DNA from: Desulfobulbaceae bacterium
GTDB lineage: Bacteria > Desulfobacterota > Desulfobulbia > Desulfobulbales > Desulfocapsaceae
DNA length: 50,130 nt
Reading direction: 5' to 3'
Assembly: GCA_008933635.1 (NCBI GenBank)
Contig: WBUQ01000015.1
Location: 1-50,130, forward strand
Shown here: piece by piece, positions 24,039 through 41,984 of the stretch
Position numbering within the stretch: position 1 is the stretch's first letter
Layout: every line of letters begins with the position of its first letter
Position numbers and translations under genes: made by a program
The notes under the pieces: model-generated
The model's input: the letters and a program-made list of their open reading frames with translations, nothing else
Told to the model about the DNA's origin: nothing
Databases searched by the model: none

Positions 24039-24047
24039 AGTGAACAG

Positions 24048-24098
24048 AAAATATGTTACACATGTTTCATTGTCAAGAAGTAAAAATAGAATTAGTAT
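24048..24098. promoter_or_regulatory. Overlapping divergent promoters of chrB and PPDK-like paralogue 2
   Basis: For chrB (minus strand): TTGACA (24071-24076) and TATTTT (24048-24053) with a 17-base spacer. For the plus-strand gene: TTGTCA (24070-24075) and TAGTAT (24093-24098), also with 17 bases. The two -35 elements overlap by five bases, so RNA polymerase could serve only one direction at a time. A regulator bound here, possibly ChrB itself, would control both transcripts. Confidence 0.65.
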
Positions 24099-24162
24099 TG
24101 AACGACCGGCAAATGACAGCCTCATCAGATTTGCAACCGGCTCAACCCTACGGAGTACGACA

Positions 24163-27100: not shown

Positions 27101-27279
27101 GATATGAACTGCCCGTGTTCAGGGACCGATGGTATGGGTTGGAAGTAAAAATAGCGGGTAATTCGGCTTCATGTTTGGTCAATGGAGCGGATGTGTTCGA
27201 TTATCAGGCCGAGAGGAGCCTCCATGGCCATTTCGGGTTATGGGCAAAGGCCGATTCTATAACCCTGTTTAAGAAATGA
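24163..27279 (+). CDS. PPDK/PEP-synthase-like protein with novel C-terminal half (paralogue 2)
   Basis: The product has 1038 residues with the same layout as the 17850-20960 protein: helical N-terminus, ATP-grasp (AMRSSAVREDSDASFAGQY, SGVLYTADP, DIEWAIDRQRQ), phospho-His domain (EVGSTTCHLASVAREFGMP), the unrecognised middle (GGDSYALIGTDYLNLSAKFGYHFATLD) and the C-terminal beta domain (NYFVFRINALEDNAILFEF). The TIM barrel is again missing. The two are clearly paralogues but differ in many surface positions, so they may form a heteromer or act on different substrates. The ATG at 24163 is preferred because upstream sequence in frame overlaps the divergent promoter and chrB. Confidence 0.75.
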   Translation: MKGLLRMFTQKDRCTPLTGASGMHVKKFGYFREFLVGNRNALRALAQLEMLYYSGQSFTAADIAFHYEQLFGQVRGLIDALNDLSERRYASLHQQADAINAQIRKVFRPPVIRHDLLPVVSLADLPAAAIGDAGGKAVSLARIARDTDLPVPPGFVVTVSGYELFLKANRLEQLILDELAELSPGDSRLAEVSDRLVNLILNAAVPEELVASMQTHYRAIEQLTRPGIRLAMRSSAVREDSDASFAGQYRSVLNVSGDGLADAYREVVASSFSPRAITYRQMAGIDIAETPMCVLGLAMVDVAASGVLYTADPANGQAHTMQISAIHGLGEMLVSGNVTADSLVYDREGGTIIRREIAIKAARLDAVQSGIEEHEVAAGEAEQLAISDEEAVRLAQAGSRLEALFDGPQDIEWAIDRQRQLVILQSRPLQVAIKATEPIPEPNVSPILQGGQCASQGIAAGKVQIVGVRTDLSSVPDHAIVVAKTAAPRYAEIMGRINGLITEVGSTTCHLASVAREFGMPMAVNVTGAVELLEKETEITLFVQERPAVFSGLLIDHHPVKRRIMDSSVHRMLRAVLDLISPLHLTDPNAPFFRPENCASIHDIIRFAHEQAVREMFTLSTEAESEAVSIRLTTHIPLVLNLIDLGGGLKPGLSTCDVVTADHFASAPIQALWRGFTHPGINWHGTVQFDGSRFLTRLAASATSEFGPEPGGDSYALIGTDYLNLSAKFGYHFATLDTFCGDEPDQNYLSLQFSGGAGSLFGKTLRLQFLGKVLSDLGCTVTIQGDLLEATLNRHGRDDMLDRLDQLGRLLASSRLLDMAITNQEDVDAVAAEFMAGNYDLLNRKEQIPLQEFYTHLGHWRQVEEEGEVCWMVDGSQGMGTLAAGVSGLLSMALGKSYQELLDTIGAYYYFPLAISKSGEMDDGVISFNIKPLHGSIDQAGGLVFGLRDIGNYFVFRINALEDNAILFEFVNNNRVERARYELPVFRDRWYGLEVKIAGNSASCLVNGADVFDYQAERSLHGHFGLWAKADSITLFKK

Positions 27280-28777
27280 ATTTGAATTGAGATATTGCAA
27301 TTGAACGGCAACGTAGAGTGATGATTACGGGGTAGCGTATCAGCTACGAGCTGTCTTTTTGAAAAACTATTACAAACAGGTGTCAATAATATTGAGCCTT
27401 TCGTGTCCATTATTGACAGATGGCACCATTACGTAAGGATTTCCAGTTTCAATATCAAGATTTCATTCTTGTTCAAAGTTGAAGAGATCTACTGTTCACT
27501 GAACATCCCCTGGCGAGGGGATCCTGTTGATCTCCGCGACGTGAAAGGAGATTCGCGACGACAAGGGATGCTGGGAGCAATTAGGGGCCTATGTCTCAAG
27601 ACAGGCCGATGCCCAGTATGCCACAGTATCTGTCCGGACTGCATGAAAAAAAAGGTCATGAAAGATATGGATGGCTTATTGCCTTGTGATTGGCGAGGGC
27701 CGGTCGTGGAAGAGGATAGAAAATTTTCTGCAGATAAACCCATCAAGTCAAAAAGGGGAATCAATGTCTGATCCCCCTTCCTTTCAGCCCCGCAATGCCC
27801 GAGCGGGCGACTTACAGATTCGAATTTTCTTTTCACCAGACGATACACCTTGCGCAGAAGACATATAGTCTGGTTCCTGTTTGTCCCCCCCCTATAATCG
27901 GTTTTGCTCAGTGCATCCGTTTGGAGAGCAGGAGGTTGATATGGCTGATATCTGCCCATCTCTCCTAGGCCGAAGTGAAATCGAACCTGAGATCGTTAAC
28001 TTGATGGTAGCGGTTCGCTTATGAAAAAGCAAATCTCCCAGCCAAGGTGAATTTTCTGCTTTGCGTTACTCGCCCAACCTTCAACGTTAAAACGGTACAA
28101 GAAGTACTTTTTGTCTATATCAATTAGACGTAAAATTGAAAATTCTGCAACCAGCTCCACTTTCTGGAGGTGATACAGGATAACGCGCTTTCTTCATATG
28201 ATGCCACGGCATGCAACAGGCTAGTTCGAGTATCTGGTCGATGCACATTTCCAGCATGCAGATCTATGACTCCTTGGAAATACCCACCAAACAGTATTGA
28301 TTTTTCTCCTTGCCTTTTTCAATTTTTCGTAGCACGATAGCTATTAATATTCCGGCTCATTTCCCAATGAGATATCCCTTTCCAGGGTTTAGCTGAACAC
28401 ATATCTTTGTGTTCTTGAATTACAGGCTTGAGAGTTGTGGAGTGTTTCCAAGCAGAGGAGTTTAATCGCGGTGGCGAACGCCCTTGTTTGAACTGGAAAT
28501 CTACGCAACCGGCAATTTAATCAATCAATTGAATCCCTTCTCTGTTTATCTATTGCATCTCTTTTTGCTTTTTCAACCGCAATCAATTTCCAAACCTATC
28601 TTTATATTTTTCATGGACTTCGCTGCAATACTACTTTGAGTCCTGAAGCTTCAGGTCCATAGCTCTTATCTGCATACATAGCCCAACACCACCACACCCA
28701 TAAAACGGGAGCGAAACGATCTCTGCTCCCTTTGGGGCATTGTTGTTTCATTCCCACTACCCACAGGAGGAACAACA
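27280..28777. other. 1.5 kb region without a convincing gene
   Basis: A weak terminator (GTAGC/GCTAC stem at 27332-27347, then CTTTTT) ends the PPDK-like gene. An open frame at 27403-27771 on the plus strand contains CPVCHSICPDC, a possible zinc-binding pair, but has a GTG start with no ribosome site and overlaps an open minus frame (27489-27959). From 28000 to 28700 both strands are full of stops. A perfect 14-base palindrome CCTGAAGCTTCAGG lies at 28642-28655. This gap may contain the boundary between the metabolic region and the accessory island. Confidence 0.4.
28707..28733 (+). terminator. Leader hairpin upstream of the Rad52-like gene
   Basis: GGGAGC (28707-28712) pairs with GCTCCC (28725-28730), followed by TTT. 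It lies 47 bases before the start codon. The next two genes have similarly placed hairpins, so it could be an attenuator, a terminator or a translational control element. Confidence 0.4.
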
Positions 28778-29434
28778 ATGGCAGCAACATTTCATGAAAA
28801 GATCAACCTGATCAACGAACGATTGCGATCTCTCGGTATCGAGGCGGTCCAGGAAATCAAAATGACCGACAAGGACGGCAAGGTCATCGGCCAGGTGAAA
28901 TACGGCTATCGGCCTCAGTATGTCTTTGATTGCGTCAATGAATTTCTAGGCCCGGAAAACTGGCGATATGAACTGACGAAGGAGGAAATATTCGAAAACC
29001 AAGCGGTTTCCGAGGTGAAGCTCTTTCTTAAAGTCGATGACGGTTGGCTCTGCAAAGGTTCGCAGAAAGGCCAAATGCAGATTGTCAAAGGCAATGTTGG
29101 CGATGCCCAAAAAGGTGCGATCACCGATGCGATTCAGAAATGCATGTCACTTCTGTCAATCGGCTGCGATTCCTACAAGGGTCTGCTTAAAAATGTCTAT
29201 CAGAAGAATTCCCAGAAGCCCCCGGTCGATAAAAAGCAAACTGGCAAACAACCTGTTGCTGAAACTAGACAACCTGCGACCACCATGCCCAAGATTGCCG
29301 GAGTCACCTTTGAAGACCGTCAAGGTGTCATCGTCGCCATCGGCGAGCGTTTGTTCGATAAAAAAGAACTGCTCAAGGCCGCTGGTTTTCAATGGGATAC
29401 AACCGAGAAATCCTGGATGAAAAAAGCAGCATGA
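28778..29434 (+). CDS. Rad52-family single-strand annealing protein
   Basis: The 218-residue product has the Rad52/Rad22 core in residues ~1-130: YGYRPQYVFDCVNEFLGP, a central SEVKLFLKVDDGW strand and the family hallmark GDAQKGAITDAIQKCMSLLSIG. A linker rich in Lys, Gln and Pro follows. The ~40-residue C-terminal tail contains an independent small motif (LLKAAGFQWDTTEKSWMKK). Such proteins anneal complementary single strands in phage and conjugative-element recombination. It is followed by a Cas4/RecB-like nuclease, a standard annealase-exonuclease pairing. ACAGGAGG precedes the ATG. Confidence 0.82.
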   Translation: MAATFHEKINLINERLRSLGIEAVQEIKMTDKDGKVIGQVKYGYRPQYVFDCVNEFLGPENWRYELTKEEIFENQAVSEVKLFLKVDDGWLCKGSQKGQMQIVKGNVGDAQKGAITDAIQKCMSLLSIGCDSYKGLLKNVYQKNSQKPPVDKKQTGKQPVAETRQPATTMPKIAGVTFEDRQGVIVAIGERLFDKKELLKAAGFQWDTTEKSWMKKAA

Positions 29435-29531: not shown

Positions 29532-30503
29532 ATGTCAGAACAGTTAATGATCACCCTGCAGGCCGCCCTGCAACAGTTGGCCCATCAGCAAACCGTTGAA
29601 ACACTTGGCGACCGTAGCACCTACCTCGGGGCATCCGATATCGGAGCCTGTCCACGTAAAACAATCCTGACCAAACTCAATCCCCCGGCAGCCGATCTGG
29701 TAACTCTGCTTCGTTTTCGACGTGGCCACATGGCCGAGGATATCGTCGCAGCAGCATTCACTGCCGCAGGATTCTGCAATTTCAAACGACAAGTCGAAGT
29801 GAGATACCCGGGTGTTGTCCCGGTCACTGCCCATATCGATTTTGTCTTCATTTCCGAAGCCCGCAAATCAATGGCTGTGCTGGAAGTAAAATCACCGGAA
29901 AGCATGCCGGAAGGTCCCTACGGCTCCTGGGAAACCCAGCTCTATTTGCAAATGGGACTCCTGGCCGCCAACTATCCTGACTACAGGGTTGAAAAAGGCG
30001 CCATTCTGGCTGTCAACTTTGGGGCACAGGGTATGCAATTGTTTAACGGCTACATGCCGCAAACGATGATCTATGAAGGATTGATCGACCGGGCGACCGC
30101 GATTTGGCACGATTACCAGAAATATGCGGCAGGTGAACTGACCTCTCTGGTCATGGAAGCCGGGCCGCTCTGCGGGTTTTGCCCGTTTGTCGCTGGTTGT
30201 CCGAAATTTGCGGCGGAAGAGGTTCAGGAACTCAACGAAACTGTTGAGATCCTCACTGAACTACAGAAACAACAGAAGGCGTTAGAAGATGACATCACTA
30301 TCCGCAAAAACAATCTGCTGGCTATTGTCTCTGCACGAGGCCCTTTGAAGGCTCATGGTAGGTTTCTGCAGAAGGCGGTGCGTAACAGAAAGGTTCTCGA
30401 TGCGGATCGGTTGAACGATTTTCTCAAAGGCTATGGCCAGTCTTTAACAGACTTCCAGACGACCACCTCCTACTCCTTTCTGGAAATCAGAAAAGCTGCG
30501 TAG
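29532..30503 (+). CDS. PD-(D/E)XK nuclease with Fe-S cluster (Cas4/RecB-like)
   Basis: The 323-residue protein has nuclease motifs HIDFVF (Asp) and VLEVKSPES (ExK), with a Gln helix ETQLYLQMGL. A Cys in DIGACPRK and three in CGFCPFVAGC are positioned to hold a [4Fe-4S] cluster, as in Cas4 and AddB. The C-terminal ~90 residues are coiled (ELQKQQKALEDDITIRKNN). It probably resects DNA ends to provide single strands for the adjacent Rad52-like protein. AAGGAGG precedes the ATG. Confidence 0.82.
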   Translation: MSEQLMITLQAALQQLAHQQTVETLGDRSTYLGASDIGACPRKTILTKLNPPAADLVTLLRFRRGHMAEDIVAAAFTAAGFCNFKRQVEVRYPGVVPVTAHIDFVFISEARKSMAVLEVKSPESMPEGPYGSWETQLYLQMGLLAANYPDYRVEKGAILAVNFGAQGMQLFNGYMPQTMIYEGLIDRATAIWHDYQKYAAGELTSLVMEAGPLCGFCPFVAGCPKFAAEEVQELNETVEILTELQKQQKALEDDITIRKNNLLAIVSARGPLKAHGRFLQKAVRNRKVLDADRLNDFLKGYGQSLTDFQTTTSYSFLEIRKAA

Positions 30504-30602: not shown

Positions 30603-30776
30603 ATGTTGAATAAAACCATGTTGATCGGCAACTTAGGCGCTGATGTAGAAACCCGTTACACCAAGAGCGAAGTAGCAATCGCCAATTTCCGGGCATCCCC
30701 TGGGCTAAACCTTGGAATGCGGCTCAGCATGGGGTCTTCCGGAATGCCATCACCAACCGACCCTATCGCGGTCTGA
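30603..30776 (+). pseudogene. ssb: Truncated ssb, fused out of frame to ardC
   Basis: The first ~29 residues (MLNKTMLIGNLGADVETRYT and following KSEVAIANF) are the start of a single-stranded DNA-binding protein. At about 30690 the sequence switches to the middle of an ardC N-terminal domain, but in another frame, so the product becomes a short nonsense tail ending at 30776. The OB-fold is lost. AAGGAG lies upstream of the ATG, so the expression signals of ssb remain. Confidence 0.8.
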
Positions 30777-31546
30777 ACATCATGCTGCTGAACCTGGTAG
30801 CAATGCTGAAGGGCTTTGTCGATCCCCGCTGGCTCACTTTCAGAAATGCTGAAAAGCTCGGCGGCAATATCAGGAAAGGGGAGAAGGGCGTGCAGGTCAT
30901 CTTCTGGAAGTTCCTGCCCACGCAGAGTCTCAAGGAGGATGGTGAATTGGATCCGGATACAGATGCGACTGATGATAAAGAACGGAAAGTCATCCCATTC
31001 GCCAGGGCCTATACCGTGTTCAACGTCGAGCAGTGTGAGGGGCTTGATCTTCCCAACCTTGAGGTCGATGATAGGGAGATACTGGAGATGAACGAGTTGG
31101 CGGAAAAGATCCTGGCCCTGCCGGTCATGAAACATGGTGGTGGTCGGGCCTGTTATACGCCGATTACTGATCGGATCTTCATGCCGAACCGAGCCACCTT
31201 TGATAATCTCGATTTTTACTACGCAACCGCCTATCATGAGGTCGTGCATTGGACCGGGCACCCTGATCGACTCGCCCGTACCTTTGGCCAGCGGTTCGGT
31301 GACCAGAATTACGCCTTCGAAGAACTGGTGGCCGAGATTGGTGCTGCTTTCCTCGGTGCTCACACCGCCATCCCTTTTGCGGAAATGCGCCACCCGGAGT
31401 ATATCAACTCCTGGCTGCAGATCCTGCATGCGGATAGCAAGGCGATCTTCACTGCTGCCGCCAAGGCCCAGAGCGCTGCCGACTTTGTCCTGGACAAGGC
31501 CGGTATCATCGACTGTCACGAAACGCCTCTGCCGGCAGCGGCGTAG
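30692..31546 (+). pseudogene. ardC: ArdC-like antirestriction protein lacking its 5' end
   Basis: From 30692 the third frame reads GIPWAKPWNAAQHG..RNAITNRPYRGLN, the conserved ArdC N-terminal domain, missing roughly the first 20 residues and its start codon. It continues intact through WLTFRNAEKLGG and GEKGVQVIFW to the zincin domain with HEVVH (YHEVVHWTGH) and EELVAEIGAAFLG, ending at 31546. The first in-frame ATG is at 30782, inside the domain and without a ribosome site. ArdC proteins bind single-stranded DNA and protect incoming plasmids from restriction. It could be expressed from 30782 (254 residues), but is most likely damaged by the ssb-ardC deletion. Confidence 0.75.
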
Positions 31547-31610
31547 GCTGAACTAAGCTTGTATAACGCAAACGGCTGTCTCAACCTTCGGGGTTGGGCA
31601 GCCGTTTTTT
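31382..31610 (+). repeat. Direct repeat copy 1: ardC 3' end plus terminator
   Basis: This stretch (from ATGCGCCACCCGGAGTAT through the ardC stop and the hairpin AACGGCTG...CAGCCGTT with T run) is repeated, diverged, at 36745-36970. The terminator stem lies at 31570-31607. Confidence 0.85.
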
Positions 31611-31618
31611 CTTGTCAG

Positions 31619-31666
31619 TATAATCTATACTGTATATCTAGTATAGACTATATATACAGTATATAC
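31619..31666. promoter_or_regulatory. parA promoter/operator repeats
   Basis: TATACTGTATAT (31626-31637) and ATATACAGTATA (31652-31663) form a 12-base inverted repeat with a 14-base spacer. A TATAAT box at 31619-31624 touches it. Partition operons are commonly autoregulated through such sites, which may also act as the centromere. They lie 20-60 bases before parA. Confidence 0.6.
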
Positions 31667-31684
31667 TAATCTACGGAGTGTGTC

Positions 31685-32332
31685 ATGAGCATAACAGTTT
31701 TTGGTGGAGAGAAGGGAGGTACCGGCAAGACGACATTGGCAACCAATATCGCGGCCATGCTGGCCCTGAAGGGAAAAGACGTGCTGCTGCTCGATACCGA
31801 CCGTCAGGGGACAGCCTCCTTCTGGGCCACGGTCCGGGAAGAGGAAAACATCGAACCCCGGGTGGCCTGTGTCCAGAAATTCGGCAAAGGCCTGCCCGCC
31901 CAGGTGCGAGATCTGGCCGGGCGCTACGATGAGATTATCATCGATGCCGGTGGTCGCGATTCGATGGAATTGCGCTATGCCCTTGGTGTCGCAGACCGTC
32001 TTTATATCCCGATGCAACCCTTTCAGTTCGATATCTGGACGATTCGCCAGATGGATACCCTGGTGGAGATGGCTAAAGGCTTGAATGAAGATCTCTCCGC
32101 CTTCATCGTCCTCAATCGGGTTGCCACCAATCCGGTCATCAAAGAAGATCGGGAGGCCCGGGATTTCATTACCGGGGGGAATTTTCAACATCTGGCCCTG
32201 GCCGAATCCATGGCCCGGGACCGTATCGCCTTTCGCAAGGCCGCCCGAGATGGTCTGGCGGTGATCGAGTACGGCGACAGCAAGGCGGTCAACGAAATGA
32301 ATCAACTGTACGAGGAGATTTATGGTGACTAA
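31685..32332 (+). CDS. parA: ParA-family partition ATPase
   Basis: The 215-residue protein has the deviant Walker A GEKGGTGKTTLA (about residues 8-19), a Walker A' region LLLDTDRQGTASFW and Walker B EIIIDAGGRDS. It lacks a long N-terminal DNA-binding domain, like small type Ib ParA/ParF proteins. It would position plasmid or integrative-element DNA with its partner encoded just downstream, whose start overlaps the parA end by 11 bases. A CGGAGTG ribosome site precedes the ATG. Confidence 0.88.
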   Translation: MSITVFGGEKGGTGKTTLATNIAAMLALKGKDVLLLDTDRQGTASFWATVREEENIEPRVACVQKFGKGLPAQVRDLAGRYDEIIIDAGGRDSMELRYALGVADRLYIPMQPFQFDIWTIRQMDTLVEMAKGLNEDLSAFIVLNRVATNPVIKEDREARDFITGGNFQHLALAESMARDRIAFRKAARDGLAVIEYGDSKAVNEMNQLYEEIYGD

Positions 32333-32633
32333 AAAGAAGAGCAACCCCCTGCGCGGCGTACCGGGAACCACGGACAAGGATGCGGCCCTGGAGGCCTTTG
32401 CCGCAGGCGCCGGCCAGCCCGCAGCGCCGGCAAACGAAACGGTGTACCCATGGGAAGACCCTTATGTGCGCGAGGATGTCATGAAACAGGTCCTCCTTAA
32501 GATGCCGGAGCCCTTGTATCTTAAACTCAAACATATCACCAACTATAGCCCCTATAACATGACTTCCTTCATCCTTGAAAAGATCGCACCCGAGATTGAA
32601 AAGGAAATTGCCAGGATGACGGGACGGGGGTGA
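32322..32633 (+). CDS. Small partition partner protein (ParG/ParB-like role)
   Basis: The 103-residue protein has a flexible N-terminus rich in Ala, Gly and Pro and a C-terminal strand-helix-helix region (VLLKMPEPLYLKLKHITNYSPYNMTSFILEKI) compatible with a ribbon-helix-helix fold. Overlap with parA and small size fit the centromere-binding partner of a type Ib partition pair. No specific family was recognised, so the role comes from context. Confidence 0.65.
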   Translation: MVTKKKSNPLRGVPGTTDKDAALEAFAAGAGQPAAPANETVYPWEDPYVREDVMKQVLLKMPEPLYLKLKHITNYSPYNMTSFILEKIAPEIEKEIARMTGRG

Positions 32634-33144
32634 GGCTTGATTGTAAATGCTTCAGCGCGCTGAGTGAGCCGGGAGTAGATGCAGGTAAAGAAACAAAAAA
32701 ATCGCCTCCGGCTTGAAGAAAGCATAAAGAAAGAAGAAACGGCGTGAATGAAGAAACGAAGAAACAAACAATCGTAAATACACACAGAGGTAAACAAATA
32801 GCAAAACATAGGATCAGGTAATTTGGATGATCTCAAAACGGGTGAAGCGGGGCATCGCAATGGTTTCATGTTCGGCCGCCCCTAATGCGCCTACATTTGA
32901 ATCCGCGCTATAATGTTTGCGAAAGCAGACTTGAGTGAGTAGTGTTAAAATATTGCTTCCGATTGCTCTTAGTTAGAAGGAAAAAATTAAGGAGCCTCAA
33001 AGAAAGATTGGTTGCCTATTGGCATAGCGGTGGGGCTGCAAACCTTGCAAGACGTATTGTACTTACTGGAATGTTTGTGGATTGGAGCATTGCCTTTATT
33101 CCGGATTCCACCCATACAATGCGCCAAAAATATTGGAGCAATAG
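32634..33144. other. Gap between partition genes and ietA
   Basis: This 511-base stretch holds no supported gene; an open frame at 32942-33232 overlaps the true start of ietA. Positions ~32690-32770 are purine-rich and include AGAAGAAACGGCGTG (32732-32746), which recurs at 39021-39035. The ietA promoter probably lies in its last 200 bases but no strong match is seen. Confidence 0.5.
32732..32746 (+). repeat. Purine-rich repeat AGAAGAAACGGCGTG, copy 1
   Basis: This exact 15-mer sits in a purine-rich tract about 100 bases after the partition genes. The second copy, in a similar tract, is at 39021-39035, about 80 bases after the abiE genes. Confidence 0.6.
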
Positions 33145-34185
33145 ATGGCTAGCGCGGACCAACTCAAAGCCTTGCTTAAGTCACACATCGAGGGTGATCA
33201 AGGTCGTTTTTTCTCGGTTGCTATGCAGGTAGCAGCGCATGAAGCCAAACTAGGTCATGGCAAGTTGGCGGAAGAACTCCGGGATATGATCGATGCCGCA
33301 AAGCGCCTTGGACAGACGTCTGGCGCGGCGAGCAATCTCGTACCTATCAACAAACCGCGCGGTGAACTATCCGGACTCTTGACTGTGTCTTATCCCAAGT
33401 CACGCTTGTCCAACATGATTCTTGATGATACCGTTTCCGAGAAGTTGAAGCGTACCATCAAGGAACAGCGGTTTTTTACCAAACTGCAAGAACACGGTCT
33501 TTCTCCCAGACGGAAACTGTTACTGGTAGGGTTACCAGGTACGGGCAAGACAATGACTGCCTCAGCCCTGGCTGGAGAATTGGGAATACCGCTATTTCTG
33601 GTCCGCCTCGATTCCCTGATTACCAAATTCATGGGCGAAACTGCCGCCAAATTACGCCAGGTATTTGATGCTGTGAGTAATGTACACGGTATCTATTTTT
33701 TCGATGAATTCGATGCCATCGGCTCACAACGTGGGTTGGCCAATGACGTGGGCGAGATTCGTCGGGTGCTCAACAGCTTTTTGCAGATGATCGAAGAGGA
33801 TCAATCCAATAGCGTGATCATCGCAGCCACTAACCACCCTGAGGTTCTCGACTACGCGCTTTTCCGCCGTTTTGACGACGTCATCGAATATGGTCTGCCC
33901 AATCAAGAGCAAATAATCGCACTGCTAAAGAATCGCCTGGTGGGTTTTAAACCAGTGCGCTCGATTTGGAACAAAGCATCCCTACAAGCTGTAGGTTTGA
34001 GCTACGCGGAAATCGTCAAAGCAGCCGATGAAGCTATCAAGCATGCTATCATTCACGAACAGAGGCAGATAGCCGAGGTAGATCTGCTTCGTACTTTGAC
34101 TGAATGGAAACAGATGAGTGCCAGGCTTACAGGCAATAAAGAGCACGGGAGATCAACCAAACATGCCGGATCAAGTTCAACGTGA
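33145..34185 (+). CDS. ietA: IetA-like AAA+ ATPase of an IetAS defence system
   Basis: The 346-residue protein has an N-terminal helical region (~1-100), then one AAA+ module: Walker A GLPGTGKT (about 129-136), Walker B IYFFDEFDAI, sensor 1 IIAATNHPE and the Arg-finger segment ALFRRFDDVIEY. TTGGAG precedes the ATG. It overlaps the subtilase gene by 23 bases. An AAA ATPase paired with a subtilisin-like protease is the known anti-phage pair IetAS (Gao and colleagues, 2020). The assignment rests on gene pairing and domains, not on alignment. Confidence 0.82.
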   Translation: MASADQLKALLKSHIEGDQGRFFSVAMQVAAHEAKLGHGKLAEELRDMIDAAKRLGQTSGAASNLVPINKPRGELSGLLTVSYPKSRLSNMILDDTVSEKLKRTIKEQRFFTKLQEHGLSPRRKLLLVGLPGTGKTMTASALAGELGIPLFLVRLDSLITKFMGETAAKLRQVFDAVSNVHGIYFFDEFDAIGSQRGLANDVGEIRRVLNSFLQMIEEDQSNSVIIAATNHPEVLDYALFRRFDDVIEYGLPNQEQIIALLKNRLVGFKPVRSIWNKASLQAVGLSYAEIVKAADEAIKHAIIHEQRQIAEVDLLRTLTEWKQMSARLTGNKEHGRSTKHAGSSST

Positions 34186-36652
34186 TAATCGACCTCACCT
34201 TGTTTTAACCAACACCGCCCAGACTCAAGCATTCACCGCTCATTCTCCACGCCACTCCAAGAAGAGCATACTCCCCGAATTGAATCGTTCCCACCACGGC
34301 ACCACACTGCAAACTCAACTCTTGGCCATGAAGGAAGTAGCCCAAGAGTCGGCTACCAAACAAAATGAAATCGGCTTGGAGAGCGGCTTGGGCCTGCAAA
34401 TTCAATTTCGCAGCCTGCCCGATGTTGTGTTGGCTTATGAAAGCCTACATAACGAACCTACCCATATCGAACTGTTGAGCATTCATACGGAAGGCGAATA
34501 CACATTTGCCAACGTGTTCGTCCCGGATGGCGAATTGGGCCATTTCGAGAAATATGTAGTGGAGTACCTTGAGGAGAAAAAAGACAGGAACGGTAAATCT
34601 AGAGATCATAAAGCACTTTTGAACACCATCGAATCCATTCGTACCGCCGAACTTCGCGCTCTGTGGACTGATGAGCCTGACTTACTCCCTGAGAACCCAG
34701 ATGAAGTGTTCTGGTGGGAAGTTTGGTTACCCGTGCGCGGCCAGCGTGTCCAGGTGATGGAAGATTTCCGCAAATTAACAGAGTTGGTGGGCTGTGAGGT
34801 AGGCGACGAACATGTGGATTTCCCTGAGCGAACTGTCATGCTCATGCGTGGATCGCAACGCCAGTTCTCTCAGTCCGTGATGACTCTCAATTGCGTGGCG
34901 GAACTGCGCCGGGCCAAGGAAACGGCGGAGTTCTTCGATGGCATGAACGCCAAGGAACAATATGCCTGGAAGGATGATCTCTTGGCCCGATCCAGCTTTC
35001 CATCTCATGAAAATGATGTGCCTCGCGTGTGTTTACTCGACAGCGGCGTCAATCGCGCCCATCCATTACTGGAACCCCTGTTGGAAGGGTCGGACTTGCA
35101 TAGCGTCGAGCCGGTTTGGGGCGTTCATGATGAAGTTAACCACGGCACGGGATTAGCCGGTATTGCCGCTTATGGCGACTTGACCGATGCACTTGCCGAC
35201 GCCGGCCCTTTCCGGATTGATCATCTGTTGGAGTCCGTGAAACTACTTCAACTACAGGGCGGGAACGCAGGAAGTGCCGAATTCCATGCCAACCGTTTTG
35301 GAGACGCGGTCAGCCAACCTGAAGTATCTTTTCCCCATCGTCCACGGGTATTCAGTTCCGCTGCGACCACATCAGATTACCGTGACCGGGGGCGTCCGTC
35401 CTCCTGGTCATCTGCGGTGGATCGGTTGGCCTCCGATGCAGATGGAAACGGAGAGTTTCCCCGCTTGTTCATTCAATCTGCTGGCAACATTGATGATCAA
35501 CATGCCTGGCTGGACTATCCAGCTAGCCTGAGCACCAACCTGATTCACGACCCTGGCCAGGCATGGAATGCCCTGACTGTGGGTGCATACACGGACAAGG
35601 TCAATACTGAAGACCTTGCCCTTCATCCCGTGGCGGGGGAAGGTGAGCCCAGTCCATTCACCACTACTTCAGCAACCTGGGATAAGGCATGGCCGCTCAA
35701 GCCCGACGTGGTTTTTGAGGGAGGCAATGTCAGCCGGAGCGGTAACTTCGTCGGTACGCAACCTAGCCTCAACTTGCTTACAACACATCACAAACCTCAC
35801 GAACGATTGTTCACCACAAGCAACGCCACGAGCGCAGCATCGGCCCTGTGCAGCCGCATGGCTGCACAACTTATGGTGGCTTACCCTCAACTGAGACCGG
35901 AGACGATCCGGGCGCTGATAGTCCACTCTGCGGAATGGACCGATGCCATGCGGCAGATGTACCCACTGATTACAAAGAAAGATTATGTCTACCTCATCCG
36001 ACATTGTGGTTGGGGTGTCCCGAACCTGGAACGTGCCCGCTGGAGTCTAGCCAACTCGTTAACGCTGATAATAGAAGGCGCTCTCCATCCTTACAGGAAA
36101 GATAAAGGTGCCATCAAGACTCGTGATATGCACCTGCACGAATTGCCATGGCCCAAAGATGAACTGGAAGCCTTGGGTGAGACCAATGTGGAAATGCGGG
36201 TCACGTTATCATATTTCATCGAACCCAACCCTTCCGCGCGCGGTACGGCTTCAAGGTTTCATTACCCTTCTCATCGCCTGCGTTTTGATGTCCGCAGACC
36301 ACTGGAAACGACCGATGATTTCCTCGCCCGAGTAAATGCGGCGGCGGCTTTGGAGGAAGATGAACAAGCCATCAATCCAAAAGACCCGAACTGGTGGCTG
36401 GGTAGCCAGCAACGACACAAAGGTTCCATCCATCAAGATGTATGGACCGGTACCGCCGCCGACTTGGCCAGCCGGGGTTTTCTGGCGGTTTATCCCGCTA
36501 TGGGTTGGTGGCGCACCCGACCAAAGTTAGATCGCTTTAATCTCCCAGCCCGTTACAGCCTAATCGTTTCCATCCGCACCCCGGAAACCGAGATCGATAT
36601 TTACAACGCTGTCGCCGCGCAAATTATCGCGCCAGTGGCTATCGAAACCTGA
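34163..36652 (+). CDS. ietS: IetS-like subtilisin-family (S8) protease
   Basis: The 829-residue protein has about 290 N-terminal residues of unknown fold, then the S8 catalytic triad in order: Asp in CLLDSGVNRAHPLL, His in NHGTGLAGIAAYG and Ser in TSNATSAASALCSRMAA. The oxyanion Asn lies in IQSAGNIDD. The C-terminal ~230 residues (RVTLSYFIEPNP...) form a beta-rich extension. No signal peptide is visible, so it acts in the cytoplasm, where ietA presumably controls its proteolysis on infection. The ATG at 34163 has GGGAG upstream; the frame is open from 34118 within ietA. Confidence 0.85.
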   Translation: MPDQVQRDNRPHLVLTNTAQTQAFTAHSPRHSKKSILPELNRSHHGTTLQTQLLAMKEVAQESATKQNEIGLESGLGLQIQFRSLPDVVLAYESLHNEPTHIELLSIHTEGEYTFANVFVPDGELGHFEKYVVEYLEEKKDRNGKSRDHKALLNTIESIRTAELRALWTDEPDLLPENPDEVFWWEVWLPVRGQRVQVMEDFRKLTELVGCEVGDEHVDFPERTVMLMRGSQRQFSQSVMTLNCVAELRRAKETAEFFDGMNAKEQYAWKDDLLARSSFPSHENDVPRVCLLDSGVNRAHPLLEPLLEGSDLHSVEPVWGVHDEVNHGTGLAGIAAYGDLTDALADAGPFRIDHLLESVKLLQLQGGNAGSAEFHANRFGDAVSQPEVSFPHRPRVFSSAATTSDYRDRGRPSSWSSAVDRLASDADGNGEFPRLFIQSAGNIDDQHAWLDYPASLSTNLIHDPGQAWNALTVGAYTDKVNTEDLALHPVAGEGEPSPFTTTSATWDKAWPLKPDVVFEGGNVSRSGNFVGTQPSLNLLTTHHKPHERLFTTSNATSAASALCSRMAAQLMVAYPQLRPETIRALIVHSAEWTDAMRQMYPLITKKDYVYLIRHCGWGVPNLERARWSLANSLTLIIEGALHPYRKDKGAIKTRDMHLHELPWPKDELEALGETNVEMRVTLSYFIEPNPSARGTASRFHYPSHRLRFDVRRPLETTDDFLARVNAAAALEEDEQAINPKDPNWWLGSQQRHKGSIHQDVWTGTAADLASRGFLAVYPAMGWWRTRPKLDRFNLPARYSLIVSIRTPETEIDIYNAVAAQIIAPVAIET

Positions 36653-36744
36653 ATTGCGAGATCTAGGTACTGCTCAGGAAATCCAGGTATTCGGCGACCA
36701 TGCCAAGATGTCCCTCCATTTGGGCACTCCCTTATTTTCACGGA

Positions 36745-36970
36745 TATGCGCCACCCGGAGTATCAACTCTTGGCTGCAGATCCTGAAAACCGACACCAAA
36801 ACCATTTTCACCGCTGCCGCCAAAGCCCAGAACGCTGCTGGCTTTGTCCTGGATAAGGCTGGCATCAGCGACTATCACGAAGCGCCTCTGCCGGCTGCGA
36901 CATAGGCTGAATCAAGGCTTATCACGCAAACGGCTGTCTCAACCTTTGGGGTTGGCGGCAGCCTTTTTTT
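36745..36970 (+). repeat. Direct repeat copy 2: ardC 3' remnant plus terminator
   Basis: This stretch matches 31382-31610 through the last ~55 codons of ardC, the stop, the following GGCTGAA...AACGGCTGTCTCAACC and the terminator with seven Ts. It has many base changes and lacks two bases after GAGTAT, which breaks the ardC frame. The surviving open frame (36654-36905) reads INSWLQILKTDTKTIFTAAAK and ends HEAPLPAAT. It is a remnant, not a gene. Confidence 0.85.
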
Positions 36971-37171
36971 GTTTGTTCTATCTATATCGACGGTAACCAG
37001 TCGTCGCCAGTATCACGATATTGAATCGGCTCGACTTGAAGATATGATGAGTAACACATAAAAATCCGTGGGTTACTCGTGTTATCTATTAAAAAGTTTT
37101 ACTTGATAAAAAATTAAATAACCCATAAAATAACTATGGGTTAGGTGAACGTATATCAAATTGATTTTACC
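36971..37171. other. abiE promoter region
   Basis: A short AT-rich gap between the ardC remnant terminator and abiEi. It carries two inverted repeats described separately. Confidence 0.5.
37051..37143. promoter_or_regulatory. Paired operator inverted repeats upstream of abiE
   Basis: IR1: GTAACACA (37051-37058) with TGGGTTAC (37069-37076), seven of eight bases paired. IR2: TAACCCATA (37119-37127) with TATGGGTTA (37135-37143), perfect with a seven-base spacer. Both share the half-site TAACCCA. AbiEi antitoxins are known to repress their own operon by binding two inverted repeats, so these are the likely sites. Confidence 0.75.
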
Positions 37172-37978
37172 ATGAAACACGAAGATTTTTTCCGAAAACA
37201 TCCGGTGTTCACTGGCGAAGAACTGGAAAGGCACCTGTCAGGCACAGGAAAATCAGGCCACAGAACCAGAGAATCCCTGCTGAATTATCACCGGAAAACA
37301 GGACACGTCGTTCTCATACGTCGTGGGCTGTATGCAGTCATCCCACCAGGAGCCGATCCGGATCTGTACCCGGTCGATCCTTTTCTGGTTGCCACAAAGT
37401 TGACCAAGGACGCCGTGCTGTCATACCATACGGCCATGGAAGTGCATGGACGCGCCTATTCTGTACGGGAACACCTTACGTATTCGGCGGCCCGCCCTGT
37501 AGCACCTGTGACTTTTCGTTCCCGATTTTTTCGCGGTGTCAAGTTTCCCCAGGCACTCAGTCGCGCAGGGAGAGAAGATTTTGCTGTCGTCAATGTTGAT
37601 CGTGCCGGTTTGGAAGTCCGGCTAACCAGCCTTGAGCGGACACTGGTGGATGTTCTGGACCGACCGGATCTCTCGGGAAGTTGGGAGGAAATATGGCGTT
37701 CTCTGGAGTCAGTGGAATTCTTCGATCTCGATAAGGTTGTGGAATATACGCTCCTGCTCGGCAATGCGACGACAACAGCAAAGGTTGGCTTCTTTCTCGA
37801 ACAACACCGTGAATCCTTGATGGTAGAAGAATACCATCTCAAATCGCTTCATGATCATCGCCCGCGGCAGCCACATTACCTTGATAGTTCAAGCAGGAAA
37901 TCCGGGAAACTCGTCGCGGATTGGAATCTGATAGTACCTGTTGCCTTAATCGAACGGACTTGGGGAGAAGTTCTGTGA
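37172..37978 (+). CDS. abiEi: AbiEi type IV antitoxin and repressor
   Basis: The product has about 268 residues. An N-terminal winged-helix region (RTRESLLNYHRKTGHVVLIRRGLYAV) is followed by the AbiEi C-terminal domain (VLSYHTAMEVHGRAYSV, RLTSLERTLVDVLDRPD). It represses the operon and counteracts the AbiEii toxin. The ATG at 37172 is preferred; a GTG at 37145 is in frame but lies one base after the operator and neither start has a good ribosome site. The stop overlaps the abiEii start. Confidence 0.88.
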   Translation: MKHEDFFRKHPVFTGEELERHLSGTGKSGHRTRESLLNYHRKTGHVVLIRRGLYAVIPPGADPDLYPVDPFLVATKLTKDAVLSYHTAMEVHGRAYSVREHLTYSAARPVAPVTFRSRFFRGVKFPQALSRAGREDFAVVNVDRAGLEVRLTSLERTLVDVLDRPDLSGSWEEIWRSLESVEFFDLDKVVEYTLLLGNATTTAKVGFFLEQHRESLMVEEYHLKSLHDHRPRQPHYLDSSSRKSGKLVADWNLIVPVALIERTWGEVL

Positions 37979-38943
37979 AAATCTCTCGTGAAAAGCTGGC
38001 AGCCCAAGCGGAAGCGACAGGATTCAGGCCGGATATACTGGAAAAGGTAGCTCACCTGCTGGGATTGCTCGAAGCCCTTGGCAGCCATCCTTTTTTAAAA
38101 GGCAAACTGGCCCTTAAAGGGGGGACAGCCCTGAATCTTTTTGTCTTTGATATTCCCAGGCTTTCCGTTGATATTGATCTGAACTACGTAGGTGCCGAGG
38201 ACCGGGAAGCCATGCTTGCCGAACGCCCCAAGATCGAGCAGGCGATCCAGGCAGTATTTTCGAGGGAGGAGTTCACTGTCAGGCGCATGCCGGAAGAGCA
38301 CGCCGGCGGCAAATGGTTATTACGGTATCAAAGTGCTGCCGGTCAGGGCGGCAACCTTGAAGTGGACCTCAACTTCATGTACAGGGTCCCGTTGTGGCCG
38401 GTCATGAAATCGGATTCTCATTCGGTTGGTGCTTGGCAGGCTACCCGAATACCTATAATAGATATCCATGAGTTGGCGGCGGGAAAACTGGCGGCTTTGC
38501 TGGCACGCAGGCAGGCGAGAGATTTATTCGACAGTCATGGCATTCTGCATATGGGAAATCTCGACCAGGATCGTCTGCGCATAGCCTTTGTTGTTTACGG
38601 TGCCATGAACCGCAAGGACTGGAGAACGGTTTCTGTTGACGATGTGAATTTTGACGCGGAGGAATTAGCCCGGCAACTGATTCCGACCTTGCGCATTCAT
38701 TCATCCGAAGAACAAAAAACATTTACCGAATACGGTAAACGTCTCGTGGAAGAATGCCGGAGGGCCTTGTCGATCGTACTCCCTCTCTCGGTAGCTGAAA
38801 GAGACTTTCTGGATCTGCTGCTCGAACATGGCAAAATCGATTCGACGATCCTGACCGTTGACTCCACCCTGCAGCAGCGCATTGAAAAACAACCTCTTCT
38901 TGAGTGGAAGGCCGTCAATGTCCGGAAACATAAGGGACTGTAA
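37975..38943 (+). CDS. abiEii: AbiEii nucleotidyltransferase toxin
   Basis: The 322-residue protein has the nucleotidyltransferase signature LALKGGTALNLF (about residues 44-55) with the metal-binding DID in RLSVDIDLNYVG and later DLNFMY, then a helical C-terminal half. AbiEii toxins transfer nucleotides to RNA or other targets and cause abortive infection when unrepressed. The start is GTG at 37975, overlapping the antitoxin stop (GTGA), so translation is coupled. All visible catalytic residues are present. Confidence 0.88.
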   Translation: MKISREKLAAQAEATGFRPDILEKVAHLLGLLEALGSHPFLKGKLALKGGTALNLFVFDIPRLSVDIDLNYVGAEDREAMLAERPKIEQAIQAVFSREEFTVRRMPEEHAGGKWLLRYQSAAGQGGNLEVDLNFMYRVPLWPVMKSDSHSVGAWQATRIPIIDIHELAAGKLAALLARRQARDLFDSHGILHMGNLDQDRLRIAFVVYGAMNRKDWRTVSVDDVNFDAEELARQLIPTLRIHSSEEQKTFTEYGKRLVEECRRALSIVLPLSVAERDFLDLLLEHGKIDSTILTVDSTLQQRIEKQPLLEWKAVNVRKHKGL

Positions 38944-39263
38944 CGAAGTAACGATGGCAAGAACGCCATTTCGTATCCGAAGGAAGAAAAAATGAAGAAA
39001 CTGGTCAAAGAGTGAAAGATAGAAGAAACGGCGTGTTTGAAGAGAGAAAGAAGCTGAAGACAGCTCATCACTAACTTAACAAAACCTATGATGCCATGCC
39101 GATTGATTGACCTGCCAGGACAAATTGGTAGTATCAGAGATGCTAGTTGGCCAACAATATTGTTAAGAGAATGAGTGAAGTCTTAATGATATTTTGACTC
39201 TAATTGCCCTGATATCAAAGCAAAAACCTTGACATAATCTAGCAGTGTTAAACGGAGGAGACG
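38944..39263. other. Gap between abiE and the Mrr-OLD-Mod-Res operon
   Basis: No gene is visible. The first 120 bases are purine-rich and contain the second copy of AGAAGAAACGGCGTG (39021-39035). The remainder is AT-rich and must hold the operon promoter; a CATAAT at 39233-39238 is a possible -10 but has no well-spaced -35. Confidence 0.5.
39021..39035 (+). repeat. Purine-rich repeat AGAAGAAACGGCGTG, copy 2
   Basis: Exact 15-base match to 32732-32746, in the same purine-rich setting downstream of a two-gene cassette. Confidence 0.6.
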
Positions 39264-40184
39264 GTGGCAATTCCTGATTTTCAGTCATTCTTTTTACCGA
39301 TGCTGAGATTAGCTAACGACAATAAGGTTCATACTCTCAGAGAAGCTTGTTCAAGCCTAGCAGAGCATTTCCGGCTCAGTGAAAATGAACTCAAAGAAAT
39401 TTTACCGAGTGGGACGCAGGCTATATATAAAAACCGTATCGCATGGGCGCGAACATATCTTGCCAAAGCACTGCTTCTTGAAAGCCCGAAGCGTGGGGCA
39501 TTTTGCATAACAGAACGAGGTCGTGACTTGCTTGCCGGAAACCCGGTGGAGCTTCGGGTCAAGCAACTGAAGGCTTATCCTGAATTTGTTGCCTTCCATA
39601 GTCAAGGCAAAGAAGCCTCTGAAGATACGGGTGACTGCCAAAACGAGACCACCAACGATAAGTCACAAACTCCAGACGAGCTCTTCGAAATGGCGTATCA
39701 GGAACTTCGTTCTGGGCTCTCGGTAGAACTACTGTCTCTGGTATCCAACAACTCACCCGAGTTTTTCGAACAGCTCGTAATCAAGCTGCTCGTCAGATTG
39801 GGATACGGTGGTTCAATCAAAGACGCTGGTCAAGCCATAGGTCGCTCAGGCGATGAAGGCATTGATGGAATTATCAAAGAAGACAAGCTTGGTTTAGATG
39901 TCATATATATCCAGGCCAAGCGGTGGCAGGGTTCGGTTGGAAGGCCGGAAATCCAGAAGTTCGTCGGTGCCCTTCAGGGACAGCGAGCTAAGAAAGGTGT
40001 ATTCATCACCACCGGTAGTTTTACCAAAGATGCTCATCAGTATATTGCCACAATTGATCCTAAAGTTGTGCTGATAGATGGCAAACGGTTGGTTGAACTT
40101 ATGATTGACTATGGATTAGGTGTCTCGGTGGCCGACATATATGAGATAAAAAGGATAGACTCTGACTTCTTTATTGAGGATTAG
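39264..40184 (+). CDS. mrr: Mrr-family restriction endonuclease
   Basis: The 306-residue protein has an N-terminal Mrr_N winged-helix domain (LPSGTQAIYKNRIAWARTYL) and a C-terminal PD-(D/E)XK nuclease domain with GDEGIDGII and VIYIQAKRW (Q-x-K), about residues 190-225. Mrr cleaves methylated foreign DNA. The start is GTG at 39264 behind a good GGAGGA ribosome site. OLD follows after seven bases, so it is co-transcribed with the methylase and helicase genes. Confidence 0.9.
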   Translation: MAIPDFQSFFLPMLRLANDNKVHTLREACSSLAEHFRLSENELKEILPSGTQAIYKNRIAWARTYLAKALLLESPKRGAFCITERGRDLLAGNPVELRVKQLKAYPEFVAFHSQGKEASEDTGDCQNETTNDKSQTPDELFEMAYQELRSGLSVELLSLVSNNSPEFFEQLVIKLLVRLGYGGSIKDAGQAIGRSGDEGIDGIIKEDKLGLDVIYIQAKRWQGSVGRPEIQKFVGALQGQRAKKGVFITTGSFTKDAHQYIATIDPKVVLIDGKRLVELMIDYGLGVSVADIYEIKRIDSDFFIED

Positions 40185-40191
40185 TGAATAA

Positions 40192-41982
40192 ATGCATCGA
40201 CTAAGTGAGTTGCATATAAAAAATTTCCGAGCTTGCAAAAACGTCTCTCTTCCCTTGGAAGGCTATACTCCACTAGTGGGACAAAATAATACTGGCAAAT
40301 CGACAATTCTTGAAGCTATCAAATGGGTGCTGAAGCCCTTTGCATTATCTGAAAGTGATTTTGGAAACTCAGGTCAGCCCGTCGTTATTAGTGCTCGTGT
40401 CGAGGGTATTTCATCGGACATTTTGAGTCTTGTGCCGAACGCAAAGCATCGTGCAGCGATCGAACCGTTTTGTGTCGATGGATTTCTATGGATTCGAGCG
40501 GTTGCGTCGGAAGCTGGCACTGGTGCGAAAAAAATTGAAAAGCAGGTCTATGACCCGAGCCAATATTCAGGTGTAGGGCTCCCTGCGGATGACGGTTGGA
40601 GAGAGTACCCGACTGGGCTACCGCAAGCAGTCTCTGCCTTGTTACCAGAAGCTCTGCATATTGAAGCGATGGATGACGTGGGGGAAGATCTGGGGAAGTC
40701 CAAAAGTGGGAGTACGATCAAAAACTTACTTGATGAAATCATGGGCCCTGTTCTGCAAGCCCATGATGATCTGAGCGAAGCACTTAGCACGATCAGACAC
40801 ATTTTGACCACGGATGGGTCAAATCGCTCCAGCCATTTACAGACATTTGACGAACAAGCCTCCAAAACTCTCAACGATTTCTTTCCTGGTCTGTCTATTT
40901 CTCTTGATCTTCAGGTTGTAGATATAAAGGAGTTTTTTAAGGCTGGGGATCTCCACATAACAGACAAGCTAACCGGAGACCGACGTCGGTTTGATCAATT
41001 GGGAACAGGTGCTCAGCGATCCATTCAGATGTCGCTTATCCGTTATCTTGCGGAAGTCAAATCTGCTACGCAAGAGAATCCGGCTCGGAGGTTGCTGTTA
41101 ATAGATGAACCAGAACTTTATCTCCATCCTCAGGGAATTCGTCGTCTGAGGGAAGCTCTGGATAAGTTGTCTCAGAAAGGTTTTCAGATAGTTTTTTCAA
41201 CTCATTCACCTTTGATGCTGAACCGGGAAAATGCTGCGGATACAGTTATCGTGCGAAAAAAGAAGGAGGAGGGAGTCATTACCCAGAAACCGCTTCGCAG
41301 AGCTGTCCAAGCGGCATTAAGTGATGCACCTTCACAATCGAGAACCATTTTTGAGTTGGGAAATGTTGCTGAAATTTATTTTTCTGATCGGGTTATTATC
41401 TGTGAAGGCAAGACAGATTCACGCTTGCTGCCTCTGGCCTATGAGCGTATAAATGGCTACCCGATGGAGTTGGATCAAACAACCATGATTTCTTTGGGCG
41501 GGTGCGAAAATATTCCCAAGGCAATGAAAGTACTTGATTCAATGGGTATTGCTGCTTGTGCAATTGCTGATTTGGATTTTGCGTTTACTGGAGCCAGGAA
41601 AAGTGGGATGTTGCCGAAAGATGGTGACGATTTGATTCAAGCGAGAGCTGTATTGCAACGCCTGCAGCCAGAGCATGGGTTTTTTATTGCCGGTAACGGT
41701 TTGCCACAGAATAAGGGGGAATGGACGGCGGCTGATGCTTGGGCGGTAGTTGCTCATGACAGCGAAGGGAGAAAAATTGCTGACTATGTTCATACTGAAC
41801 TAAAGGGATGCAAGGTCTGGGTTTGGCCCACTGGCGATATCGAGCGAGTTACCGGATCTTCTGAAAAGGGAGAGGATGCAATTATCAAGCAGGAAGAACA
41901 GCTTAGAGCGATGTCCTGTGATCAAATTGTCGACAAGATGCCGTATTTAAAGGCATGTTTCGAGTGGATAAGGAATTTGTAG
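40192..41982 (+). CDS. OLD-family ATPase-TOPRIM nuclease
   Basis: The 596-residue protein has an ABC-type ATPase with Walker A GQNNTGKST (about residues 29-37), Walker B LLLIDEPELYLHP and the H-loop FSTHSPLML. A TOPRIM domain follows, with the Glu in VIICEGKTDS and the DxD in AIADLDFAF. OLD nucleases act in anti-phage defence, alone or as GajA of Gabija, but no UvrD-like GajB helicase is next to it. Its stop is two bases before the Mod start, and mrr ends seven bases upstream, so it is built into a restriction operon. Confidence 0.9.
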   Translation: MHRLSELHIKNFRACKNVSLPLEGYTPLVGQNNTGKSTILEAIKWVLKPFALSESDFGNSGQPVVISARVEGISSDILSLVPNAKHRAAIEPFCVDGFLWIRAVASEAGTGAKKIEKQVYDPSQYSGVGLPADDGWREYPTGLPQAVSALLPEALHIEAMDDVGEDLGKSKSGSTIKNLLDEIMGPVLQAHDDLSEALSTIRHILTTDGSNRSSHLQTFDEQASKTLNDFFPGLSISLDLQVVDIKEFFKAGDLHITDKLTGDRRRFDQLGTGAQRSIQMSLIRYLAEVKSATQENPARRLLLIDEPELYLHPQGIRRLREALDKLSQKGFQIVFSTHSPLMLNRENAADTVIVRKKKEEGVITQKPLRRAVQAALSDAPSQSRTIFELGNVAEIYFSDRVIICEGKTDSRLLPLAYERINGYPMELDQTTMISLGGCENIPKAMKVLDSMGIAACAIADLDFAFTGARKSGMLPKDGDDLIQARAVLQRLQPEHGFFIAGNGLPQNKGEWTAADAWAVVAHDSEGRKIADYVHTELKGCKVWVWPTGDIERVTGSSEKGEDAIIKQEEQLRAMSCDQIVDKMPYLKACFEWIRNL

Positions 41983-41984
41983 AA

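Follow-up and report, generated by a model that had tools for sequence, protein, structure and literature searches.

We consider a 50,130-nucleotide stretch of a Desulfobulbaceae genome (contig WBUQ01000015.1 of assembly GCA_008933635.1, called the window here), in which a short non-coding element, M, stands twice on the plus strand, once before the defence genes ietAS (M copy 1, 32722-32766) and once before an operon that encodes Mrr, OLD and Mod proteins (M copy 2, 38999-39056). In a family of elements from Desulfobulbales, sulphur-cycling bacteria, that resemble integrative and conjugative elements (ICEs), M in most loci with readable context marks the place where the left backbone ends and the defence cargo begins, and this role as a cargo boundary is well supported. 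We consider it an even bet that M is a fixed joint between the left backbone and an exchangeable cargo that is swapped by the element's own annealing recombination; in this proposal M as the crossover point, and the annealing system as its driver, are what we infer.

Sequence and spread of M

The core of M is the purine-rich 15-mer AGAAGAAACGGCGTG. The 4.55-Mb genome contains it at two places only, positions 32732-32746 and 39021-39035 of the window, and has no site for the reversed 15-mer, used as a control. Seven of 193 relatives (this genome counted) contain the 15-mer, at 10 places, and the reversed pattern is found at none. The longest word common to the two non-coding stretches has 15 letters, against a maximum of 12 when both stretches are dinucleotide-shuffled 300 times and of 14 when only their 120-nt purine-rich segments are shuffled, 1000 times. 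The second repeated piece is the 3' end of ardC with its intrinsic terminator (31375-31613 and 36736-36973); an alignment of 31380-31613 with 36741-36973 gives 83.5% identity over 236 columns, and the repeat search returns the same pair in the same orientation. The original prediction, that the ardC 3' end and the 15-mer each occur twice, is therefore borne out, and the doubt that it raised itself, a chance match of purine-rich sequence, is ruled out by the counts in the genome and its relatives, the reversed controls and the shuffles.

When the neighbourhoods of 13 copies are aligned, M emerges as a conserved non-coding element of about 64 bp with the 15-mer as its core. Most copies begin with a short hairpin, which is followed by AAGAAAGAAGAAACGGCGTG, little changed, three variable bases and GAAGAAACGAAGAAAC; AAGAAAC is repeated within M, mainly at 17- and 8-bp spacing. 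The profile of M used for the searches, R1, has rows that mostly came from exact 15-mer matches, so that its core conservation is inflated. It returns copy 1 at 36-39 bits and copy 2 at 46.3 bits over 39003-39054, and it finds M in 25 of the 257 genomes of the order at E<=0.01. At E<1e-7 there are 20 places in 14 of the 257 genomes and in six families; the model was built without eight of these 20, which include an identical second copy in genome G061. A scan of the phylum gives matches in 7/395 genomes at E<=0.001, three of them in Desulfobulbales, and the other four, at 20-22 bits, are treated as chance. A search for the 15-mer with one mismatch was discarded as too noisy (81/257 genomes, with reversed-control matches in many). 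In a collection of named genomes a degenerate 20-mer occurs in eight stretches: three are from Desulfobulbus, one from Deltaproteobacteria, two from a single Proteobacteria metagenome-assembled genome (both identical to contigs of G173), one from Desulforudis, with the same ardC-ParA block, and one from Lachnoclostridium, where the rest of the element is not present.

The core is strongly constrained. Its identity is 0.93, against 0.56 at four-fold degenerate ardC sites, in 17 genome pairs (those of 21 with ardC DNA less than 80% identical), and it is still 347/393, or 0.88, when the 15 bait positions are left out. Because this is so far above the four-fold sites, the sequence of M is probably read by something and is more than spare homology. 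M may be constrained through a role in exchange, or as an insulator or protein site that exchange must spare.

The latter is a possible view, to which we give clearly less than even weight. M would be a protein-bound or insulating site, ordinary recombination would take place anywhere, and only exchanges that spare M would survive, so that breaks would accumulate beside it; its job could be to block antisense transcription from the cargo into the backbone, or to bind a segregation or replication protein. The excess of core identity over four-fold sites speaks for this view, and the spacing of AAGAAAC (17 and 8 bp) resembles iterated protein sites. A small minus-strand hairpin with a terminator-like tail, T-rich in L027, lies at or beside M in locus L027 and in the window, and the nearest tested genes after M are antisense, pointing toward M, in G151, G214, G192 and L022, as an insulator would have it. 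The hairpin is missing, however, from copy 2 of the window and from L024, and of seven folds of M six do not surpass those of shuffled sequence (z -0.49 to +0.77), while the seventh has a z of -1.99. That M often lies close behind a ParA pair would suit a binding site, but these pairs are of two kinds, and in G151, G142, G192, G112 and G039 M occurs with no homologue of either kind in the fetched DNA. Nor does such a site have any need of the tandem M-abiE-M arrangement of G092.

Two further roles for M were also considered. As an RNA structure it is not convincing, given the above folds (five plus-strand stretches, two of them also folded as the minus strand, z -1.99 to +0.77), and as the centromere of the adjoining ParA pair it is weakened by M loci that have neither ParA pair. 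Rfam at gathering scores returns nothing in the window, and a tRNA search of the window, for a possible attachment site, finds none. As a separate observation, in one M copy of G192 (L031:9840-9893), flanked by an epimerase-type and a Fic gene, the core recurs every 17 bp; the fetched stretch around this copy has no backbone gene.

Homology and gene order around M

For 22 copies of M we compare up to 600 bp on each side, pair by pair, with a threshold set higher than any of 200 shuffled pairs reached. The six copies of group f12 (G151, G156, G214, G142, G192a and G206) have DNA in common upstream of M in 15/15 pairs and downstream in 1/15, and in pairs such as L026/L029, L026/L030 and L029/L030 the last match stops 0-7 bp from the right edge of M. 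The five copies of group f3 (G061, three of G173, and G181), which represent three genomes and hence few independent lineages, have common downstream DNA in 10/10 pairs, starting 0-5 bp past M, while eight of the ten pairs have none in the 600 bp upstream. The one group shares DNA as far as M and then carries different cargo, and the other shares DNA from M onward with different genes ahead of it, so that homology stops at M on either side: in these alignments, M is a two-sided break. A backbone gene (ArdC, ParA partner or AbiE) stands before M in 16/22 copies; G039, counted among the 16, has RadC and, by eye, an apparent abiEii remnant in this position.

The order of the backbone is read from G151, on a single contig: tyrosine integrase, coupling protein (TraG/TrwB type), ImuB-type polymerase, DNA polymerase III alpha, a 230-amino-acid-type (Rad52-like) protein, YqaJ/RecE-type exonuclease, SSB, DUF6094 methyltransferase, SNF2 helicase, RadC, ArdC, terminator and M, the domain names of the later genes being taken from homologues in L030 and L035. 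We call the family ICE-like after the integrase (Phage_integrase 4.2e-37) and the coupling protein (TraG-D_C 1.9e-17, TrwB 2.8e-13). A ParA pair or AbiE before M is optional. Beyond 15-30 kb of cargo, a second conserved segment follows in five elements (G151, G192, G142, G112 and G039).

Two of the backbone genes would make up the annealing system. The AlphaFold model of the 230-amino-acid-type protein of the window, made with 8 homologues, has a mean predicted local distance difference test (pLDDT) score of 58, with 60-83 by blocks of ten in the first ~120 residues. All 23 Foldseek matches in the PDB at E<=0.001 are RAD52 or Mgm101, with low TM-scores by query length (0.25-0.38). We therefore describe it as a Rad52-like, predicted annealing protein, on the fold of a model of moderate confidence. 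A homologue at L035:3852-4544 has a weak Erf-like PHROG match (E 0.0018), and a search of plasmids with the Rad52-like protein returns one distant match, from Thermovibrio, annotated Rad52/Rad22; the same kind of search with the ardC 3' end finds no plasmid that carries it. The exonuclease at L035:4643-5608 matches phrog_434, RecE-like, at E 5e-11, and PDDEXK_1 (E 6.6e-4) and YqaJ (E 1.3e-3), both under the Pfam cut-off; the exonuclease of the window has no match in Pfam. The annealing-protein gene is found in 36/257 genomes of the order at E<=1e-10.

The position of M relative to this gene was checked at 20 annealing-gene loci of 16 genomes, with R1 run over up to 15 kb on each side. Downstream of the gene (221.5 kb) there are 8 M-like matches at E<=1, in 6/20 loci and all on the strand of the gene; upstream (213.7 kb) none of the 20 loci has one. 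The check was not blind, with G112, G001 and G044 already known for M or for a one-mismatch 15-mer, and the three newly found positive loci are weak (E 0.14-0.46). These weak matches are supported by their proximity to the ParA partner: the site lies 5-204 bp past the ParA partner gene at five of the six positive loci, and 48 bp past a fragment of that gene at the sixth.

What follows the terminator of ardC varies from place to place. It is the ParA pair of the window in the window itself, G061, G173 and L022, a different ParA pair in G092, abiE in G002 and behind copy 2 of the window, and M directly in the f12 copies. Other genomes thus differ in what stands behind the ardC end, and the second doubt raised with the original prediction, that none would show cargo exchange there, does not hold. 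The matching boundaries with differing cargo that were described for the window hold in so far as both flanks repeat; the single cargo slot gives way to two, ParA or AbiE before M and the defence operons after it. Of the two repeated units, the repetition is real, and their flanks belong to the ICE-like element.

A local duplication within the window would explain the repetition differently: one unit would have been copied, its contents later replaced, and the match of the flanks would be a relic. That both ardC 3' copies point the same way and are 83% identical agrees with this, but the reading is scarcely credible. Copy 2 together with abiE is nearer to a contig of G002, another genome of the genus (92.5% identity; a nearby gene there has cysteine-synthase and cysteinyl-tRNA-synthetase domains), than to copy 1, and the order ardC, ParA, M is found again in other genomes. 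Copy 2 is the final ~170 bp of ardC only, with 2 nt fewer than copy 1 (GAGTATATC vs GAGTATC) and hence frameshifted. The window and G002 have the same ~20 bp ahead of the truncated ardC and then diverge; this shared junction dates the truncation of copy 2 to a time before the contexts separated and argues against local duplication. By eye, the sequence before ardC in the window (36716-36740) and in G002 (L036:2482-2500) resembles a stretch before an ardC-type terminator in G206 (L097, near 1000), and this sequence may be one end of an insertion element by which ardC was truncated.

On the other side of M, PADLOC was run on downstream open reading frames (ORFs) of 17 loci, 11 with M and 6 with weaker M-like sites, and matches at E<=1e-30 are counted. 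The ORFs were picked by hand (large, near M, non-random and sometimes not the nearest), and the PADLOC matches are names, not tests. In nine of the 11 M loci a gene with a known or candidate role in defence lies no more than 4 kb behind M. The matches are IetAS and Mrr-OLD-Mod (window), GajA (G151), GajB (G214), BrxL (G192), BrxP (G092, 3.1 kb after M), Drt1a (G112), the HKD+Snf2 model C3a139 (G039) and a helicase model (G142, at 3.8 kb, where a tested ORF nearer to M gave nothing). The systems span IetAS, Mrr-OLD-Mod, Gabija, BREX, DRT1a and HKD+Snf2, and the cargo consists of operons in either orientation. Under the threshold are the ORF of L022, with no match, and that of G173b (L034, Schlafen/AlbA type), with only 1.6e-12. 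At the weaker sites five of six loci have a match, namely C3a139 (G001), a CBASS cyclase (G117), BrxC/PglX (G200), PDC-S05 (G059) and a PD-DExK nuclease (second G112 element); L153 (G044) has none at E<=1e-30. With 9/11 M loci and 5/6 weaker loci, M is a possible bait for defence genes, and the cargo of L022 (2215-6738), G173b (L034:2798-4120) and L153 (278-1228), where the ORFs tested behind M or a similar site lack a strong PADLOC match, offers places to seek new ones.

On two contigs of G061, L027:8572-14907 and L028:1-6337, a 6.3-kb block is 99.9% identical. It contains the ParA pair, abiE, M and part of a Schlafen/AlbA-type gene and ends in a 441-amino-acid ORF; it is either a recent duplication or an assembly repeat.

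A proposed exchange of cargo at M

How would cargo be exchanged at such a joint? Two related elements in one cell would share M and the ardC-terminator region, and crossovers at these short conserved stretches would swap the cargo while the backbone is kept. Most likely the RecE/YqaJ-type exonuclease of the element would make the ends and its Rad52-like protein would anneal them; alternatively, RecA could take this part. Such an exchange can also leave joints in series, such as M-abiE-M in G092 and M-ietAS-(ardC remnant-abiE)-M in the window. In this Desulfobulbales family a constrained sequence has become the border or lies within it. The original prediction of a defence island that grows by recombination at shared flanks is supported by the breaks on both sides of M; recombination itself is what we infer from them.

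Several observations weigh against exchange by annealing. The constraint on M (core identity 0.93, or 0.88 without the bait, vs 0.56) is not explained by homology alone, M was looked for at the right end of the cargo and was not found, and no crossover product has been observed. Six of the 22 M loci have no upstream backbone gene in the fetched DNA (G181, G206, G192b, G062, G064 and G071); among these G206 shows a terminator only, and G071 has just 85 bp available. Further, 14/20 annealing-gene loci, several of them on short contigs, are without a downstream M-like match.

A dedicated site-specific recombination at M, in which an unrecognised recombinase moves cassettes of a gene with M in an integron-like manner, is distinctly unlikely. 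It would account for the M-abiE-M series in G092, the Fic genes near M in G062 and G192b and the parA-M and abiE-M units, and also for a core that is kept across families with homology broken on both of its sides. Against it, no M was found at the right end of the cargo, and the ICE integrase is the sole recombinase among the ten G151 genes scanned. In integrons a short conserved site ends each cargo unit, and this attC site has the core box GTTRRRY. The tandem array of unit and site, here M-abiE-M, is the likeness between the two; the differences are that a box of the attC type is present in 0/13 M rows on either strand, and that the cargo here consists of whole operons, in either orientation. 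An integron integrase was not seen among the G151 genes scanned, with no search aimed at IntI made. It is unlikely, though a little less so, that M is the recognition site, read by a protein of the element, of an undescribed cassette-exchange system for defence operons in conjugative elements of Desulfobulbales. If true, whole defence systems would be added or replaced at a sequence-specific joint.

Defence hotspots of ICEs with sharp borders are already known. In hotspots 1-5 of the SXT/R391 ICEs the cargo varies, the backbone segments around it are conserved, and the borders are precise and common to different elements (PMC2791158, PMC2786100), and these ICEs too code for their own annealing protein and exonuclease (PMC2786100). 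There s065 and s066, the annealing protein and a putative exonuclease, are reported to promote hybrid elements (PMC2786100), and the precision of the borders is put down, tentatively, to bet/exo recombination, selection being the alternative (PMC2791158). The comparison with these ICEs covers the logic of the hotspots. The SXT borders, as described there, are distinct for each hotspot, whereas M recurs across families, in varied neighbourhoods and twice in one locus, and the annealing protein of the Desulfobulbales elements differs in being Rad52-like. The defence hotspots of Pseudomonas genomic islands are similar in that, according to their description, modular ICE-like slots hold varied defence systems and may persist in degenerate islands; unlike the present case, they are bounded by flanking protein genes, and the account given of them does not mention a shared DNA element (PMC12629846). 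In the open-licence literature searched, a non-coding border element that recurs across families, forms a two-sided joint and is doubled between cargo blocks is undescribed, and no description of these Desulfobulbales elements was found.

Fixed places for cargo are thus known, and the cause of their sharp borders, recombination or selection, is left open by the SXT/R391 authors (PMC2791158). Because the border is here a short conserved element, present across families and in double copies, the question can be tested in a cloned system. The two M copies suggest how mobile elements may swap whole defence systems at a fixed place.

The element in the window

The genes of the element in the window all lie on the plus strand. 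Alignability to the left backbone of the family starts at 28345-28500, around the annealing-protein gene (blastn to G192, G151 and G142, 75-78% identity). The Rad52-like single-strand annealing protein (28778-29434, 218 amino acids, assigned from the above model and Foldseek search) is followed by the PD-(D/E)XK/YqaJ/RecE-type exonuclease (29532-30503, 323 amino acids, 64% amino-acid identity to L035:4643-5608) and by a 5' remnant of ssb (30603-30693), recognised by blastn to the ssb regions of L029 and L035 and by reading the frames. At about 30690 the first ~30 codons of ssb are fused out of frame to ardC copy 1, which is also broken. Its 5' part is gone, and the first in-frame start codon left is at 30782 (30782-31546; Pfam MPTase-PolyVal 1.3e-41, ArdcN 1.9e-18); the ArdcN and metalloprotease domains are matched, the N-terminal domain from profile position 50 of 123, so that ArdC is not intact here. 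The points that bound this gap in the window (30603-30782) are 5.8 kb apart in G151 and about 2 kb apart in G092, and a deletion has therefore probably removed the genes between ssb and ardC.

After the first terminator come a ParA-like ATPase (31685-32332, Pfam AAA_31 1.1e-16, CbiA 8.3e-16) and its 103-amino-acid partner (32322-32633), which has no Pfam match and is kept beside ParA in G061, G173, L022 and others. Immediately upstream of parA, an AT-rich inverted repeat (31621-31668) with arms 86% complementary is a candidate operator or centromere. Past M copy 1, ietA (AAA ATPase, 33145-34185, PADLOC IetA 6.5e-78) adjoins ietS (subtilase, 34118-36652, PADLOC IetS 8.6e-39, Pfam Peptidase_S8 3.2e-54), the adjoining ATPase and subtilase that make up an IetAS defence system. 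The second ardC terminator is followed by abiEi (37145-37978, PADLOC AbiEi 7.7e-120) and abiEii (37975-38943, PADLOC AbiEii 8.3e-116, Pfam 2e-32), and M copy 2 by an Mrr-type (type IV) restriction enzyme (39264-40184; Mrr_cat 6.2e-38, Mrr_N 6.4e-29, PADLOC mREase_IV 1.3e-92), an OLD-family nuclease/ATPase (40192-41982, PADLOC Old 2.8e-217), a type III methyltransferase, Mod (41955-43805, PADLOC MTase_III 9.6e-241), and an 885-amino-acid ORF (43809-46466), labelled Res in the original prediction and given here as an ORF only.

The window is an at least partly broken element with two M joints in a row. A tblastn search of it with the integrase and the coupling protein of G151 finds neither, and to the left of the element eight of the nine ORFs tested have metabolic domains and one has none. 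Contig C158 (L195) of the same genome has both genes in the G151 arrangement (coupling protein 86%, integrase 47% amino-acid identity), and the 212 bp at its start are 95% identical, in inverted orientation, to the 212 bp with which the window starts; a search of C158 for M finds none. On these matches the window may either belong to a larger element, joined to C158 through the metabolic genes (1-28 kb), or be a separate fragment. The idea that it is a decayed remnant without transfer genes is weakened by the integrase and coupling protein of C158 and by the shared 212-bp end.

Two further features lie at the margins of the element. Among the metabolic genes, two PEP-synthase-like genes (PPDK_N and PEP-utilizers domains) at 17850-20960 on the minus strand and 23950-27279 on the plus strand are divergent and form an inverted repeat. 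At the right end of the cargo a small ORF (46850-47140) has, by eye, the look of an HU/IHF-type DNA-binding protein.

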